Assembly (NCBI GenBank): GCA_025774865.1
Contig: JALGZO010000370.1
Coordinates: 1-8,944, forward strand
Length of the DNA: 8,944 nt
Direction: 5' to 3'
From: a bacterium
Lineage (GTDB): Bacteria > ARS69
Made by a program: the position numbers and the translations under genes. Below the pieces are notes generated by a model that searched no databases, was not told where the DNA came from, and was given only the letters and a program-made list of their open reading frames with translations. Position 1 is the first letter of the stretch. Every line of letters begins with the position of its first letter. This document shows, in pieces, positions 3,286 to 8,944 of this stretch.

Positions 3286-3393
3286 ATGCCGGCCGCCACT
3301 ATCGTGATCGTGTTCGGATCGTGGGCGCTCCTGCTCGGGCTCGTCCTTTGGGTGCGAGCGAAGACGTCGGATGACGGCGAGGGCGAACCCTGA
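3286..3393 (+). CDS. Small single-span membrane protein, probable symporter accessory subunit
   Basis: This ORF encodes 35 residues, starting MPAATIVIVFGSWALL and ending KTSDDGEGEP. One hydrophobic segment (about residues 5-23) is followed by Trp-Val-Arg-Ala-Lys and an acidic tail. By the positive-inside rule the tail would face the cytoplasm. It has a strong Shine-Dalgarno, and its TGA at 3391-3393 overlaps the ATG of the symporter by one base (TGATG), so the two are probably translationally coupled. Known precedents are small partners encoded beside transporters, such as MetS for the MetP NSS transporter, YjcH beside ActP and YhdT beside PanF. Very short 'symporter small accessory protein' families are also annotated next to sodium:solute symporters. 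Assignment here rests on size, topology and context, not on a recognised sequence motif. It could instead be only a leader peptide that drives translation of the symporter. Confidence 0.72.
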   Translation: MPAATIVIVFGSWALLLGLVLWVRAKTSDDGEGEP

Positions 3394-4979
3394 TGGGGGG
3401 CGCCAATCAGGGCTGGCTCCTCTTCGGGATCGGGCTCTACCTCGCTGTGATCCTCGCTGTCGGGTTCGTGACCTGGCGGCGCATGCGCTCCCTCGACGAT
3501 TTCGTGCTGGGCGGTCGCCGCCTGTCGCCGTTCTCGGCCGCGCTGTCCGAGCGTGCCTCCGGTGAGAGTGCCTGGTTCCTGCTCGGGCTCCCGGGGGCGG
3601 CCTATGTCGCCGGGTTCGCGGAGTTCTGGACGGTGATCGGAAGCTCGTTCGGGATCTTCCTGTCCTGGACGCTGATCGCCCGCCGGCTGAACGAGGAGTC
3701 GCGGCGGGCCGGTGCGCTCACGATCCCGGACTTTCTCGAGTCCCGGTTCGGTGACAACACGAGAGTTCTTCGCGTCGTCGCCATGATGATCATCCTGTTC
3801 TTCTACACGGCGTACGTCGGGGCGCAGTTCGACGGCGCCGGGAAGATCCTGGAGACGACGTTCGGGAGCAGCCTCCAGGGGATCGCCGACGGCCTCGGCT
3901 CGTTGATCCGTGGCGTCACGTTCGGAGCCGTGGATCCCGCGCTCACCCCGAAGGAAGCCGGGATGATCCTCGGCGCGATCGTGGTCGTCTTCTACACATT
4001 CATGGGCGGGTTCATCGCGGTCGTGTGGACGGACGTCGTGCAGGGACTCTTGATGATGTCGGTCGTGGTGGTGTTGCCGCTCCTCGGGCTCGCGGCACTC
4101 GGGGGACCGTCCGGAATGGTCGAAGCGATCGTCTCACGCACCGCGGCCACGCTTCCCGAGATGCCGGCGGAAGACGCGGCCAAGGTGGCGGTCGGCTTCG
4201 ACGCGCTTCGGATGTCGGCCGGCAAGGTCGGGTGGGGCCTCGTGAACGGAGTCATGTTCGGCGGCCTCATGTGGGGGCTCGGCTACCTCGGGCAGCCGCA
4301 CCTCCTCGCGCGGTACATGGCGATTCGGAGCCCCGAGGACGTTCGAACGGGGCAGACGATCGCGGTGATGTGGGTGCTCCTCGCGTACTGGGGGGCAGCT
4401 TTTGTCGGGATCATGGCGATCGGTCTGCTCCCGGATCTCGACTACGCGAACCGCGAGCAGGTCATGCCGCTCTTGGCGCTCAAGCTCCTGCCGGGGTGGC
4501 TCGCGGGACTCGCGATCGCCGGCGCGATGGCGGCCATGATGTCCACCGCCGACTCCCAGCTCCTGGTCGCGACGTCGGCGCTCATCGAGGACGTTTACGT
4601 GAAGCTCGTGAGGCCGACCGTCGACGCGGCACGGCTCGTTCTCCTGTCGCGCCTTGCCACCATCGGAATCGCGGCCGTCGCGCTCTTCCTCGCCTTCCGA
4701 TCGAAGGACTTCATCTTCGATTCGGTGGAGTACGCGTGGACTGGCCTCGCCTCTTCCTTCGCGCCGGTCCTGCTCCTGTCGCTTCGGTGGAAGCAGATGA
4801 CTCGGTGGGGGGCTCTCGCGGGCATGGTGAGCGGCATGGTGTCGACGATCGTCTGGAAGAACGTGGACGTGTTGGGGGCATTCCTCGACATCAAGCTCGC
4901 CACGTTCCTCATCGCGCTTCTGTTCGCGGTCGGGACGAGCCTCGCCACCCGGTCGGAGGCCGGCGAGTCGCGCGGCTGA
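3393..4979 (+). CDS. PutP-like sodium:solute symporter (SSS family)
   Basis: This 528-residue inner-membrane transporter has about 12-13 predicted spans and resembles E. coli PutP (sodium/proline symporter) along its whole length. Matching stretches are DDFVLGGRRLSPFSAALS (35-52), LLGLPGAAYVAG (63-74), YTFMGGFIAVVWTDVVQG (201-218), WGLGYLGQPHLLARYMA (294-310) and AAMMSTADSQLLVATSALIED (380-400). The last includes Ser384-Thr385, equivalent to the Na2-site Ser340-Thr341 of PutP. PutP Asp55 aligns with Gly57, followed by Glu58 and Ser59 (ASGESAW instead of ASDMSGW). About 25 extra residues sit near 157-187, between two spans. It starts by a one-base overlap with the stop of the small membrane protein. 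Proline is the best guess for substrate, but another amino acid or organic solute is possible, so no gene symbol is given. Confidence 0.92.
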   Translation: MGGANQGWLLFGIGLYLAVILAVGFVTWRRMRSLDDFVLGGRRLSPFSAALSERASGESAWFLLGLPGAAYVAGFAEFWTVIGSSFGIFLSWTLIARRLNEESRRAGALTIPDFLESRFGDNTRVLRVVAMMIILFFYTAYVGAQFDGAGKILETTFGSSLQGIADGLGSLIRGVTFGAVDPALTPKEAGMILGAIVVVFYTFMGGFIAVVWTDVVQGLLMMSVVVVLPLLGLAALGGPSGMVEAIVSRTAATLPEMPAEDAAKVAVGFDALRMSAGKVGWGLVNGVMFGGLMWGLGYLGQPHLLARYMAIRSPEDVRTGQTIAVMWVLLAYWGAAFVGIMAIGLLPDLDYANREQVMPLLALKLLPGWLAGLAIAGAMAAMMSTADSQLLVATSALIEDVYVKLVRPTVDAARLVLLSRLATIGIAAVALFLAFRSKDFIFDSVEYAWTGLASSFAPVLLLSLRWKQMTRWGALAGMVSGMVSTIVWKNVDVLGAFLDIKLATFLIALLFAVGTSLATRSEAGESRG

Positions 4980-5092: not shown

Positions 5093-6175
5093 ATGTCTCG
5101 CCGGCCCCGCGCGCTCGGGCTCGTCTCGGGCGGCCTCGACAGCACGCTCGCGCTCGCGCTCATGAAGGAGCAGGACGTCGAGGTCGAGGCGGTGAACTTC
5201 TCGACCGGCTTCTGCTTCACCGACCACCACCGCGCGATGTCCTCCCCCAAGCACAAGCTCCGCAACGAGGCGCTGCGGGCGGGCGCGGATCTCGCCGTGC
5301 CGGTGACCGTCATCGACATCTCGCAAGAGTACTTCGACGATGTTCTGCTTCGCCCGAAGCACGGGTACGGCGCGAACATGAACCCGTGCCTCGACTGTCG
5401 CGCGTACATGCTCGCTCGAGCGCGAGAGCACATGGAAGAGATCGGCGCGGACTTCATCTTCACGGGCGAGGTGCTCGGGCAGCGGCCGAAGTCGCAGTTC
5501 CGCAAGGCGCTCGGGATCGTCGCGGATGAGTCGGGGCTCGGAGACCGGCTGCTGCGTCCGCTCTCGGCCCGGCTCCTGCCGCCGACCCGGCCCGAACGCG
5601 AGGGCTGGATCGATCGGTCGAAGCTCCTGGGCATCTCCGGACGCAGCCGGAAGCTCCAGATGGAGGAGGCCGCGAGGCTCGGTCTCGACCTCGAGGACAT
5701 TCCGCAGCCAGCCGGAGGGTGCTGCTTCCTCACGGACGAGTCGTACGCCCGCAAGCTCAAGGACTGGCTGGACCACCAGGAGGAGCCGAAGCATGACGCG
5801 GAGGCGTTCGTACTCCTGAAGGTGGGGCGACACCTGCGGCTCAACGACGAAGTGAAGGTCGTCGTGGGTCGGGATGAGGCTGAGAATCGTTTCCTCGCGT
5901 CGTATCGCAGGGGGCGGTGGGAATTCTGGGCTCGCGACTTCACGGGACCGACCGTCCTGGTGGAGTCGGCGCGCGATCTCCAGTGGGAGGAGATCGAGAA
6001 GGTCGCCGCGATTACCGCCCGCTACGGCCACGGCCGGGACGAAGAGGGGGTCACCGTTTGCTACCGAGTTCCGGGAGGGCCGAACGAGTTGCTCTCCACG
6101 GTGGACGAGCGTCCGATCGAGGAGATCTCGGTGTCGGTATCACGGCTCGAGGAGATCGAGCCTTTTCGCGTGTGA
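5093..6175 (+). CDS. ThiI/MnmA-like PP-loop RNA-thiolation enzyme with C-terminal NFACT-R-like domain
   Basis: This 360-residue cytoplasmic protein is probably an ATP-dependent tRNA thiouridylase or related RNA sulfuration enzyme. The PP-loop SGGLDST (12-18) would bind ATP and adenylate the target base. NPCLDC (Cys99, Cys102) and PAGGCC (Cys210, Cys211) supply cysteines that could act in sulfur transfer or hold an Fe-S cluster, as a CxxC plus a third Cys does in archaeal ThiI. Other family-like stretches are FIFTGEVLGQRPKSQ (121-135) and LLGISGRSRK (178-187). The C-terminal part from about 237, with LLKVGRHLRLNDEVKVVVG then FWARDFTGPTVLV, resembles the NFACT-R (DUF814) domain, for which fusion to ThiI-like enzymes and a role in RNA modification have been proposed. 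I see neither the N-terminal THUMP nor the rhodanese domain of E. coli ThiI. Its TGA overlaps the next start by one base. The exact modified nucleotide is unknown. Confidence 0.85.
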   Translation: MSRRPRALGLVSGGLDSTLALALMKEQDVEVEAVNFSTGFCFTDHHRAMSSPKHKLRNEALRAGADLAVPVTVIDISQEYFDDVLLRPKHGYGANMNPCLDCRAYMLARAREHMEEIGADFIFTGEVLGQRPKSQFRKALGIVADESGLGDRLLRPLSARLLPPTRPEREGWIDRSKLLGISGRSRKLQMEEAARLGLDLEDIPQPAGGCCFLTDESYARKLKDWLDHQEEPKHDAEAFVLLKVGRHLRLNDEVKVVVGRDEAENRFLASYRRGRWEFWARDFTGPTVLVESARDLQWEEIEKVAAITARYGHGRDEEGVTVCYRVPGGPNELLSTVDERPIEEISVSVSRLEEIEPFRV

Positions 6176-8169
6176 TGCGGCGAGTCTGGCCGGGGCTGCT
6201 CGCGCTCGGTCTCGTTTCGTGCGCACGCGGCCCCGTCTCGGGCGACCTGGCCGGCTGGAACGTCCTGTTGATCACCATCGATACGCTGCGCGCCGATCGG
6301 CTCGGGTTCATGGGGTACGACGGCGTCGAGACCCCGGTGCTCGACGATCTCGCCGCCTCCGGGGTCGTCTTCGACGGTGCCGTGTCGTCGGCGCCCGTCA
6401 CGTTGCCGGCGCACGCGACGATTCTCACCGGGCTATATCCTCCGGCGCACGGCGCGCTGGACAACGGCTTTTACTCGCTGCCCGAAGGCGTTCCCACCCT
6501 CGCGACGATCTTGAAGGAGGAAGGCTACGACACGGCCGCCGTGATCGGCGCGTACGTGCTCGTCGATCGCGCCGGCCTCGACGCCGGGTTCGACGTCTAC
6601 GACGACGAGTTCACGAAGCCGCGGCTCCGCGGGCAAGCGTACCGCGAACGGCGGGCCGCGGAGGTCACGGCCAAGGCGGCGGCGTGGCTCGAGAGTCGAT
6701 CCTCGAAAGCGCCGTTCTTTCTGTGGGCGCACTACTTCGATCCGCACGCGCCCTACGATCCGCCGGAGCCGTACGCCACGCGTTATCGATTGCGCCGGTA
6801 CGAAGGCGAAATCGCCTACACCGACGAATTGATCGGGCGTCTCCTGGAGGCCGTGCACGCGGCCGGCGAGCTGGATCGGACGCTCGTCGTCGTCACCGCC
6901 GACCACGGAGAGGCGTTCGGAGACGGCGGCGAGATGACGCACGGAATGTTGCTTCGAGGGAGCACGTTGCGGGTGCCGCTCGTCCTGGCCGCGGCCGGTC
7001 GGCTCGCGAAGGGGCGGCGCGTCGCCGAGGTCGTGGGCACGGCCGACGTAACGCCGACAATCCTCGATCTCCTGGGCGTGAGTGGACCGGGTGACGTTCA
7101 CGGGATCTCGTTGCTTCCGGCGATCCGAGGTGAACGGCGGGAGGAGCACTACGTGTACTCGGAGACGCGCCTTCCCACGGACGAGTTCGGATGGTCCATG
7201 CTCGCCGGCGTGCGGGGGGATCGCTGGGCGTGGGTTCGCGCTCCGCGCCCGGAGCTCTACGATCTGGAGGCGGATCCCGGCGAGTCGAACAGCCTGCACG
7301 AGGCCCGTCCCGGTCTCGTGGAGCGTCTCGACGGTCTCGTTGGCGAGATCCTCGATCGTGGCCGCGAGTCGGTAGCCCGCGCCCACCTCTCCGACGAGCA
7401 GGTGTCGGCGCTGCGCTCGCTCGGGTATCTCGTGTCGCACGAACCGCCGCCGTCCACGGGCGAGGACCCCAAGGACATGATCTACATTCAGGCGGAAGGC
7501 AACCTCCTCATGAACTACCTGGACCGCGGCGAGCCGGAACGGGTGCTGGAAGGAATGGAGAGCCTCCTCGAGAAGACTCCGCTGAATCGCGAGCTTCTCA
7601 TGCTGCGGGCTCAGGCGAACGCCAGGCTCGGGAATCTGGAGCCGGCCATCGCCGACATGCGGGAGTGCCTCGCGACCGGGGGATCACTCGAGGTGGACGG
7701 GACTCTGCTCGCGATGTGGTTGAACCAGGCGGGGAAGTCGGGGGAAGCGGAAGCGCTTCTCGAGAGCTTCGTCGAGGCGGAGCCCGACTTCGCGCAGCAC
7801 TCGTACAATCTCGGGAACCTGCTCGGGGAGCTCGATCGAACCGAGGAGGCGGTCGCCGCGTACGAGCGTGCCCTCGAGCTCGATCCCGACAACATTCCGG
7901 CCCTCGTCAACCTCGGCTTCGCGTTGAGCCGGTTGGAGGGGGACGCGAGAGACGTCGATCGCGCGCGCGAAGCGATCGACCGAGCGATCGAGTTGGCGCA
8001 CGACGACGTTCCGTCACTCATGAAGATCGATCTCTGTCAGAACCTGGGTCTCCTCGAAGAAGGTCTCGCAGTGGCGCGCGAGCTTCAACAGAAGCCGAAG
8101 CTCCGCGGGATCACGCGGCAGCAGCTCGCGGATGCGCTACGTCGGCTGCAGGAAACCGAGGCGGAATGA
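6175..8169 (+). CDS. Lipoprotein with sulfatase-fold (alkaline phosphatase superfamily) domain and C-terminal TPRs
   Basis: This 664-residue protein has a signal peptide ending in the lipobox LVSC (Cys16). Ala at +2 suggests the outer membrane if Lol rules like those of E. coli apply. The sulfatase-fold domain spans about 28-365: LLITIDTLRADR (Asp36, metal), PVTLPAHATILTG (73-85), WAHYFDPHAPYDPP (184-197), TADHGEAFGDGG (241-252; Asp243 and His244), THG (255-257) and LRVPLV (265-270). Thr76 stands where true sulfatases have the Cys or Ser that becomes formylglycine, so a Thr-nucleophile phosphatase or phosphotransferase is as likely as a sulfatase. A linker, LSDEQVSALRSLGYL (405-419), leads to about five TPR-like repeats (437-470, 475-508, 509-541, 542-575, 576-614), the fourth being the clearest. 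The reading frame is open back to 5917. The ATG at 6175 is chosen because it gives a proper lipoprotein signal and a TGATG overlap; GTG at 6172 is the alternative. Substrate unknown. Confidence 0.9.
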   Translation: MRRVWPGLLALGLVSCARGPVSGDLAGWNVLLITIDTLRADRLGFMGYDGVETPVLDDLAASGVVFDGAVSSAPVTLPAHATILTGLYPPAHGALDNGFYSLPEGVPTLATILKEEGYDTAAVIGAYVLVDRAGLDAGFDVYDDEFTKPRLRGQAYRERRAAEVTAKAAAWLESRSSKAPFFLWAHYFDPHAPYDPPEPYATRYRLRRYEGEIAYTDELIGRLLEAVHAAGELDRTLVVVTADHGEAFGDGGEMTHGMLLRGSTLRVPLVLAAAGRLAKGRRVAEVVGTADVTPTILDLLGVSGPGDVHGISLLPAIRGERREEHYVYSETRLPTDEFGWSMLAGVRGDRWAWVRAPRPELYDLEADPGESNSLHEARPGLVERLDGLVGEILDRGRESVARAHLSDEQVSALRSLGYLVSHEPPPSTGEDPKDMIYIQAEGNLLMNYLDRGEPERVLEGMESLLEKTPLNRELLMLRAQANARLGNLEPAIADMRECLATGGSLEVDGTLLAMWLNQAGKSGEAEALLESFVEAEPDFAQHSYNLGNLLGELDRTEEAVAAYERALELDPDNIPALVNLGFALSRLEGDARDVDRAREAIDRAIELAHDDVPSLMKIDLCQNLGLLEEGLAVARELQQKPKLRGITRQQLADALRRLQETEAE

Positions 8170-8944
8170 AACGTCTCGCGCCGCTGGTCGCACTCGGCCT
8201 CGTATCCTGTGCGAAAGGGCCGGAGGTCGGAGACCTCGCGGGCTGGAGCGTCCTGCTCATCACCATCGACACGTTGCGGGCGGACCGCCTCGGCTTCGCC
8301 GGCTACGGCCCGGCGGAGACTCCGAACCTCGACCGGCTCGCGGAGGAAGGCATCGTCTTCGAGGGCGCGATCGCCGCGGGGCCGGTGACATTGCCGTCGC
8401 ACGCGACGATTCTGACCGGCCTTTATCCGCCGTCCCACGGTGCGCTCGACAACGGGTTCTACGGACTCCCCGACGGCGTGCCCACGCTGGCGACCCACTT
8501 GAAGGGCGCCGGCTACGCGACCGGTGCCGTCATCGGTGCCTACGTGCTGCACGGTCAGTACGGACTGGACGAAGGATTCGACTTCTACGACGACCGCTTT
8601 CGCCAGCCCCGGCGCGAGGATCAGGACCACCGCGAGCGCCGAGCGGAGCGCGTCGTCGATTCGGCGCTGACGTGGCTCCGGGACCGGTCGGGCGACGAGC
8701 CTTTCTTCCTTTGGGCTCACTTCTATGATCCGCACGCTCCCTACGATCCGCCCGGCCGGTACCGGACGAGGTTCGCGACCCAGCCCTACGACGGAGAGAT
8801 CGCGTACACCGATGAACAGGTGGGCGTGTTGCTCGATCGCCTCCGCGAGACCGGGCACCTCGACCGCACCCTCGTCGCGGTGCTCGCCGATCACGGTGAG
8901 GCCTTCGGGGATGGCGGCGAGACGACCCACGGTCTCTTGCTCCG
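8166..8944 (+). CDS. Second sulfatase-fold lipoprotein, paralogue of the previous gene (3' end outside the window)
   Basis: An open frame runs from ATG at 8166, overlapping the previous stop by four bases (ATGA), to the end of the window: 259 complete codons, no stop. GAGG lies four bases upstream. The N-terminus MKRLAPLVALGLVSC gives a lipobox Cys15, followed by AKGPEVGDLAGW, very like its neighbour. Sulfatase-fold motifs recur: LLITIDTLRADR (Asp35), GPVTLPSHATILTG with Thr75 at the formylglycine position, WAHFYDPHAPYDPP and LADHGEAFGDGGETTHG. Hand alignment without gaps over 250 residues gives about 172 identities (about 69%), so this is a tandem duplicate that has since diverged. Divergence is greatest around residues 125-215. 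Whether it also ends in TPRs cannot be seen. The two may act on different substrates or as partners. Confidence 0.9.
   Translation, partial: MKRLAPLVALGLVSCAKGPEVGDLAGWSVLLITIDTLRADRLGFAGYGPAETPNLDRLAEEGIVFEGAIAAGPVTLPSHATILTGLYPPSHGALDNGFYGLPDGVPTLATHLKGAGYATGAVIGAYVLHGQYGLDEGFDFYDDRFRQPRREDQDHRERRAERVVDSALTWLRDRSGDEPFFLWAHFYDPHAPYDPPGRYRTRFATQPYDGEIAYTDEQVGVLLDRLRETGHLDRTLVAVLADHGEAFGDGGETTHGLLL

Follow-up and report, generated by a model that had tools for sequence, protein, structure and literature searches.

Tandem sulfatase-fold lipoproteins with threonine at the formylglycine position and a predicted active site resembling that of EptA and MCR-1

Introduction

In sulfatases, the position of the nucleophile is occupied by a Cys or Ser that is converted to formylglycine (FGly). 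In the Enterococcus arylsulfatase EfAS this residue is C61, and mutants of R65, K110, H112, H220 and K324 show severely reduced or abolished activity (PMC12421950). According to SulfAtlas (2016), 30 of the 59 Pfam seeds of PF00884 carry a Thr at the FGly position and were judged not to be proven sulfatases. The same paper points out that oxidation of a Thr would yield a ketone in place of formylglycine, and it holds the Pfam profile responsible for the spread of false sulfatase annotations (PMC5066984). In the same classification, the phosphonate monoester hydrolases of S1_0 display FGly (PMC5066984). Mislabelled Thr-bearing "sulfatases" are thus already known, and the observation of Thr in the two proteins described here is a correct rediscovery.

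For a Thr nucleophile, a point of comparison is the active site of the phosphoethanolamine transferases EptA and MCR-1. The zinc ligands of MCR-1 are Glu246, Thr285, Asp465 and His466, and Thr285 is phosphorylated. His395 and His478 lie next to Thr285 and are also ligands of a doubtful second zinc, Glu468 forms a hydrogen bond with His478, and alanine substitutions at these active-site positions lowered function (PMC5216409).

Results

The locus and its surroundings

The window, by which we mean the whole stretch of 8,944 nucleotides that was analysed, contains two adjacent genes for sulfatase-fold proteins, P0001 and P0002 (Table 1). P0001 consists of a signal peptide with the lipobox LVSC, a catalytic domain at about residues 28-420 and TPR repeats at about 432-663; in profile searches, PF00884 matches it with an E-value of 1e-46, alongside TPR matches, and it matches P0002 with an E-value of 2e-43. 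The stop codon of P0001 (8167-8169) and the start codon of P0002 at 8166 overlap in an ATGA. On the other side, the TGA of the thiolase-like gene (6173-6175) shares one base with the ATG of P0001 at 6175, and therefore translation of the two genes is probably coupled. This upstream gene fuses an MnmA/ThiI-like thiolase domain to an NFACT-R_2 RNA-binding domain.

Table 1. Coordinates of genes and residues in the window, with equivalent residues in EptA and MCR-1.
Feature	Position	Strand	Equivalent or basis
Sodium:solute symporter, upstream, in conserved block	3393..4979	+	TIGR00813 and PutP-type matches
Upstream gene, tRNA thiolase (MnmA/ThiI-like) and NFACT-R_2 domains	5093..6175	+	Domain matches
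P0001, Thr-type sulfatase-fold lipoprotein 1, 664 aa	6175..8169	+	Translation
C16 of P0001, predicted lipobox cysteine (LVSC)	6220..6222	+	Sequence
D36 of P0001, predicted metal ligand	6280..6282	+	EptA E244, MCR-1 E246
T76 of P0001, nucleophile position	6400..6402	+	EptA T282, MCR-1 T285; pairwise and profile alignments
H80 of P0001, replaces sulfatase Arg	6412..6414	+	
H191 of P0001	6745..6747	+	EptA H385, MCR-1 H395
D243-H244 of P0001, predicted metal ligands	6901..6906	+	EptA D455-H456, MCR-1 D465-H466
E246 of P0001	6910..6912	+	EptA E458, MCR-1 E468
H256 of P0001, Lys in FGly-type sulfatases	6940..6942	+	EptA H468, MCR-1 H478
P0002, Thr-type lipoprotein 2, first 259 aa	8166..8942	+	Translation; contig stops at window end
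T75 of P0002, nucleophile position	8388..8390	+	Sequence, alignment

P0002 is truncated by the end of the window at an assembly break: an exact overlap of 114 bp joins positions 8831-8944 to contig C488 (locus L098), which extends the P0002 frame to a full-length TPR protein; genes for a 978-aa secreted protein and for an FG-GAP/FlgD_ig protein come next. Across 259 aligned residues, P0001 and P0002 are 68% identical. Because 87 synonymous codon differences are found among the 177 identical residues, the duplication is, by its codons, an old one, with both copies still under apparent constraint.

Two other genera of the phylum (loci L094 and L095) have this same gene order: fumC on the opposite strand, then the sodium:solute symporter, the tRNA-thiolase-like gene, the Thr-type lipoprotein and a 990-aa secreted protein. 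Both have a single lipoprotein copy, and the duplication therefore seems to be specific to the lineage of the window, or the second copy to have been lost elsewhere. In three genera, the gene after the Thr-type lipoprotein encodes a conserved secreted protein (about 980-990 aa) whose C-terminal domain is FlgD_ig-like (L095:10250-13225, L094:9939-12911, L098:2848-5784). Apart from this domain, the 990-aa neighbour had no informative match in Pfam or PDB, and it offers no hint of a substrate. Genes at GC-rich loci were called by codon-usage score; longest-ORF calling chose wrong frames.

A threonine at the position of the nucleophile

The motif region reads SSAPVTLPAHATILTG in P0001 and AAGPVTLPSHATILTG in P0002, with T76 encoded by ACG and T75 by ACA. 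The preliminary description of this DNA had assigned both residues to the FGly site, and four checks of the register agree with it. In a phmmer alignment with EfAS (9koq), T76 falls on C61 and H80 on R65. With hhalign, T76 falls on the Cys of CTPAR in E. coli YidJ (E-value 2e-38) and on T282 of E. coli EptA (E-value 2e-9); the EptA register was taken from this profile comparison, as plain MAFFT misplaced the EptA Thr relative to T76. Finally, in the AlphaFold2 model T76 starts a helix (residues 76-85), and it is at such a helix start that the nucleophile of the superfamily sits (PMC11677397). In the family alignment of 58 sequences, T76 is conserved to at least 90%. The span originally given for the motif, 6394-6417, marks the correct site but covers PVTLPAHA only.

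The FGly motif [CS]-x-[PA]-x-R is absent from both proteins, which read T-L-P-A-H (P0001) and T-L-P-S-H (P0002), such that His does indeed replace the Arg of CxPxR, as had been proposed. The Lys and His of GKxH are likewise absent, P0001 having GAY there, and so is the late active-site Lys (EfAS K324; Lys375 in SulfAtlas numbering), since H256 of P0001 aligns with K297 in the ISKGAA of YidJ. R65, K110, H112 and K324 of EfAS are thus all replaced in P0001, and only the equivalent of H220, H191, remains.

Two covarying sets of active-site residues

Loci from the genome of the window, related loci and reference loci, once aligned to the family profile, gave 102 sequences that could be classified. 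The residue sets of 85 Thr-types and 11 FGly-types covary almost completely, where these counts are of related sequences and not of independent events. FGly-types have the Arg and GKxH (11/11 each) and mostly a Lys in the column of P0001 H256 (9/11). GKxH occurs in none of the 85 Thr-types, which bears out the remark in the preliminary description that the Lys normally following the HG segment is not evident. Thr-types instead carry D36 (80/85), T37 (78/85), H80 (61/85), H191 (83/85), E212 (72/85), D243 (83/85), H244 and E246 (84/85 each) and H256 (83/85), and position 189 is acidic in 75 of 85 as compared to 3 of 11 FGly-types. The 58-sequence alignment shows no variation at D243, H244, E246 and H256. 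In a second set of loci, picked by PF00884 score from other bacterial families, the Thr-types in which all positions were readable (L146, L150, L151, L152) all have H191, DH, E246 and H256, and the Cys-types have the Arg and mostly a Lys at 256. A chance substitution, a sequencing error and a degenerate sulfatase were rejected as explanations, because the whole active site shifts consistently in many genomes.

Scaffold and phylogeny

Structure prediction, one of the checks that had been suggested, and profile comparison place P0001 close to the S1 sulfatases. P0001 belongs to the alkaline phosphatase superfamily and to PF00884, as judged by the profile match, the fold and the location of T76 at the N-terminus of a helix. 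Its AlphaFold2 model, built from 58 aligned sequences, is confident and S1-like (mean pLDDT 93.7, pTM 0.90), and the closest solved structures among the matches listed are S1 sulfatases and phosphonate monoester hydrolases, with Z scores between 41.3 and 33.9 and an rmsd of 2.2-3.8; the best is 6hr5 (Z 41.3, rmsd 2.4 over 343 residues). With hhalign E-values of 2e-38 for YidJ, 2e-9 for EptA and 2e-5 for OpgB, the predicted scaffold is nearer to S1 sulfatases than to EptA. P0001 shares with the S1 enzymes (EfAS, YidJ, choline sulfatase, 6hr5) the fold (Z about 34-41), full-length sequence similarity, the C-terminal LYDL..DP.E..N motif, the first metal Asp, H191 and D243. In contrast to them, Thr-types lack the CxPxR Arg and GKxH; Thr stands in the place of Cys/Ser and of the second Asp/Gln, His in that of the late Lys, the Asn/His/Gln position is occupied by His, and DHG is followed by Glu.

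In a tree of 103 sequences from which 15 catalytic columns had been removed, a branch with an SH-aLRT of 90, which corresponds to one change, separates the 11 FGly sequences from Thr-types of Bacteria and Halobacteria. A single origin of the Thr-types is only suggested by this tree, which is a quick search with many open forks, sampled around P0001.

Likeness to and difference from EptA and MCR-1

In the hhalign comparison, D36, T76, H191, D243, H244, E246 and H256 align with the EptA residues given in Table 1. All seven catalytic positions are held in common with EptA and MCR-1, including the Thr nucleophile and the spacing of DHGE...H, with an Asp for the first Glu. Beyond the active site the likeness is limited: P0001 is a lipoprotein with TPR repeats, an S1-type C-terminal part and distant overall similarity. 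The N-terminal transmembrane domain of the EptA type is absent, P0001 having a short lipoprotein signal and then, from residue 28, the catalytic domain, and the curated EptA-family model NF007160 gives P0001 only 20.3 bits against a cut-off of 561. EptA is also missing from the best 50 fold-search matches listed, an absence that does not exclude it. Furthermore, Thr-types conserve an E212 and an acidic D189 for which EptA has no counterpart, and therefore the Thr-type site may differ from that of EptA in detail.

Predominance of Thr-types in the genome and phylum

PF00884 has 46 matches in the genome of the window (4.7 Mb in 785 contigs). Among the 39 with a readable column, 35 have Thr, 3 Ser and 1 Cys, where the 35 include one protein (L015) that reads CTAGR, offset by one column. 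Among these proteins, only L015 and the column-Cys protein L001, a canonical CSPTR sulfatase, carry the FGly motif. Two of the Ser cases read GSAA[SA]H rather than SxPxR; for the remaining one (L034) the alignment is poor. In L022 and L030, GSAA[SA]HAALLTS replaces TLPSH and the rest of the Thr-type signature is kept; this subgroup is perhaps a Ser-nucleophile variant. Four other genomes of the same phylum have 21-42 PF00884 matches each. With about 35 Thr-type copies in one genome, the feature is general and not special to P0001 and P0002. Proteins with the FGE domain PF03781, a domain match that is not proof of a functional FGE, were found in all five genomes, and therefore FGly chemistry may exist alongside the Thr-types.

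Discussion

With the FGly motif, the Lys and His of GKxH and the second sulfate-binding Lys absent, and the catalytic set of EptA and MCR-1 conserved, the suspicion voiced in the preliminary description that "sulfatase" is the wrong label for the chemistry of these proteins is well supported, as far as residues can tell. It had named phosphate, phosphonate and phosphoethanolamine esters as possible substrates. A phosphoester is favoured by the sequence comparison, but phosphonate not specially so, since FGly is the nucleophile of the phosphonate monoester hydrolases (S1_0) and P0001 has a Thr in its place.

What the analysis shows is which residues are present and how far they are conserved, the fold that carries them and the split of the two types in the tree; the reaction, metal, location and substrate proposed below are inferred. 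We consider it probable that P0001 and P0002 are tandemly duplicated periplasmic TPR lipoproteins that break or transfer phosphodiesters via a phospho-Thr on an S1 scaffold. Once the protein is exported and anchored by its lipid, T76 would be activated by a divalent metal (probably Zn or Mn), with D36, D243, H244 and T76 itself as ligands, and would attack a phosphoester to give a phospho-Thr or phospho-X-Thr intermediate. The ester would most likely be a phosphodiester, because those members of the superfamily that act on diesters (NPP, EptA) typically use a Thr. H191 and H256, the latter oriented by E246, would hold the phosphate, a second metal or both, and so stand in for the sulfate-binding Arg, Lys, His and Lys of sulfatases. 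The intermediate would then pass to water, as in a phosphodiesterase, or to an acceptor, as in a phospho-X transferase, and the TPR domain would probably dock a partner or polymer.

The alternative that fares best, although we regard it as rather unlikely, is a dinuclear phosphodiesterase or phosphomonoesterase like NPP, in which D189, H191 and H256 bind a second metal and which hydrolyses nucleotide-like or glycan phosphoesters instead of transferring them; in so far as the explanation given above includes a hydrolase, the two overlap. PF01663, the profile of type I phosphodiesterases/nucleotide pyrophosphatases, also matches P0001, above its cut-off (E-value 1e-16), which speaks for the preferred explanation as well. 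With NPPs, P0001 has in common the Thr nucleophile and the DH metal pair; the prevalence in Thr-types of an acidic residue at 189, of H191 and of H256 would suit a second metal, and ENPPs use two zinc ions and a Thr (PMC11677397). However, the PF00884 profile fits P0001 far better, the fold search favours S1, and the second metal site is putative in P0001, the related site in MCR-1 being of doubtful relevance (PMC5216409).

It is improbable, in our estimation, that these proteins are genuine sulfatases in which Thr acts directly via a Thr-sulfate, with no formylglycine involved. The S1 fold, the close sequence kinship to sulfatases and the catalytic promiscuity of the superfamily (PMC12421950) would allow for this, but the tested sulfate-binding basic residues are all lost in the 85 sequences and swapped for one consistent other set, the genome has separate FGly-type sulfatases and FGE-domain proteins, and SulfAtlas leaves out Thr-types for lack of evidence (PMC5066984). 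Least credible of all is a pseudoenzyme or sensor like YejM/LapC, whose fold would bind a ligand for the TPR domain to signal: YejM has the superfamily fold and a Thr, its NCBIfam model matches weakly and TPR repeats suggest protein contacts, but E. coli YejM has, in our alignment, lost several catalytic positions (GRGI for DHGE, Asn for H191) that include residues invariant in the 58-sequence alignment of the family of P0001.

At the family level, P0001 and P0002 do not differ from the Thr-bearing PF00884 proteins of SulfAtlas, for which that work had already called the sulfatase labels false. The additions made here are modest and comprise the full, paired residue signature, the match to EptA/MCR-1, the predominance of Thr-types in the genome, the conserved operon, the TPR/lipoprotein form and the tandem pair. 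In the open-access literature, where only the SulfAtlas, MCR-1 and EfAS papers proved relevant, we found no experimental characterisation of a Thr-type on an S1 scaffold; subscription journals lay outside the search, such that prior work is possible. More tentatively, and with the odds in our view somewhat against it, the Thr-types might form a large coherent class of enzymes that carry out EptA-type phosphotransfer on an S1 scaffold, with dozens of copies per genome in a small phylum, many of them TPR lipoproteins, and that, jointly with PMT-type glycosyltransferases, remodel a surface or an extracellular polymer that bears phosphate.

Many bacterial and archaeal proteins labelled "sulfatase" carry the Thr, and sulfatase gene counts will thus overstate the metabolism of sulfate esters. 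A possible rule for annotation would be to require CxPxR, GKxH and the late Lys for FGly sulfatases, and to take Thr, DHGE and a His 12 residues past the His of DH as the mark of presumed phosphoester enzymes. Under such a rule, almost the whole "sulfatase" complement of the window lineage would be reassigned.

As to the substrate, PMT_2-type glycosyltransferases by other Thr-type loci weakly hint at a glycan or glycolipid. Membrane glycosyltransferases of this type, with TPR repeats of their own, adjoin Thr-type genes or fumC (L160:8502-10418, L094:1610-3388). At a further locus (L161, G003 contig 2, about 8391-10221), genes for APS kinase and ATP sulfurylase are flanked by PF00884 genes, and PMT_2 glycosyltransferases are encoded in the vicinity; if most of the sulfatase-fold genes encode phosphoester enzymes, it is odd to find genes for sulfate activation beside them.
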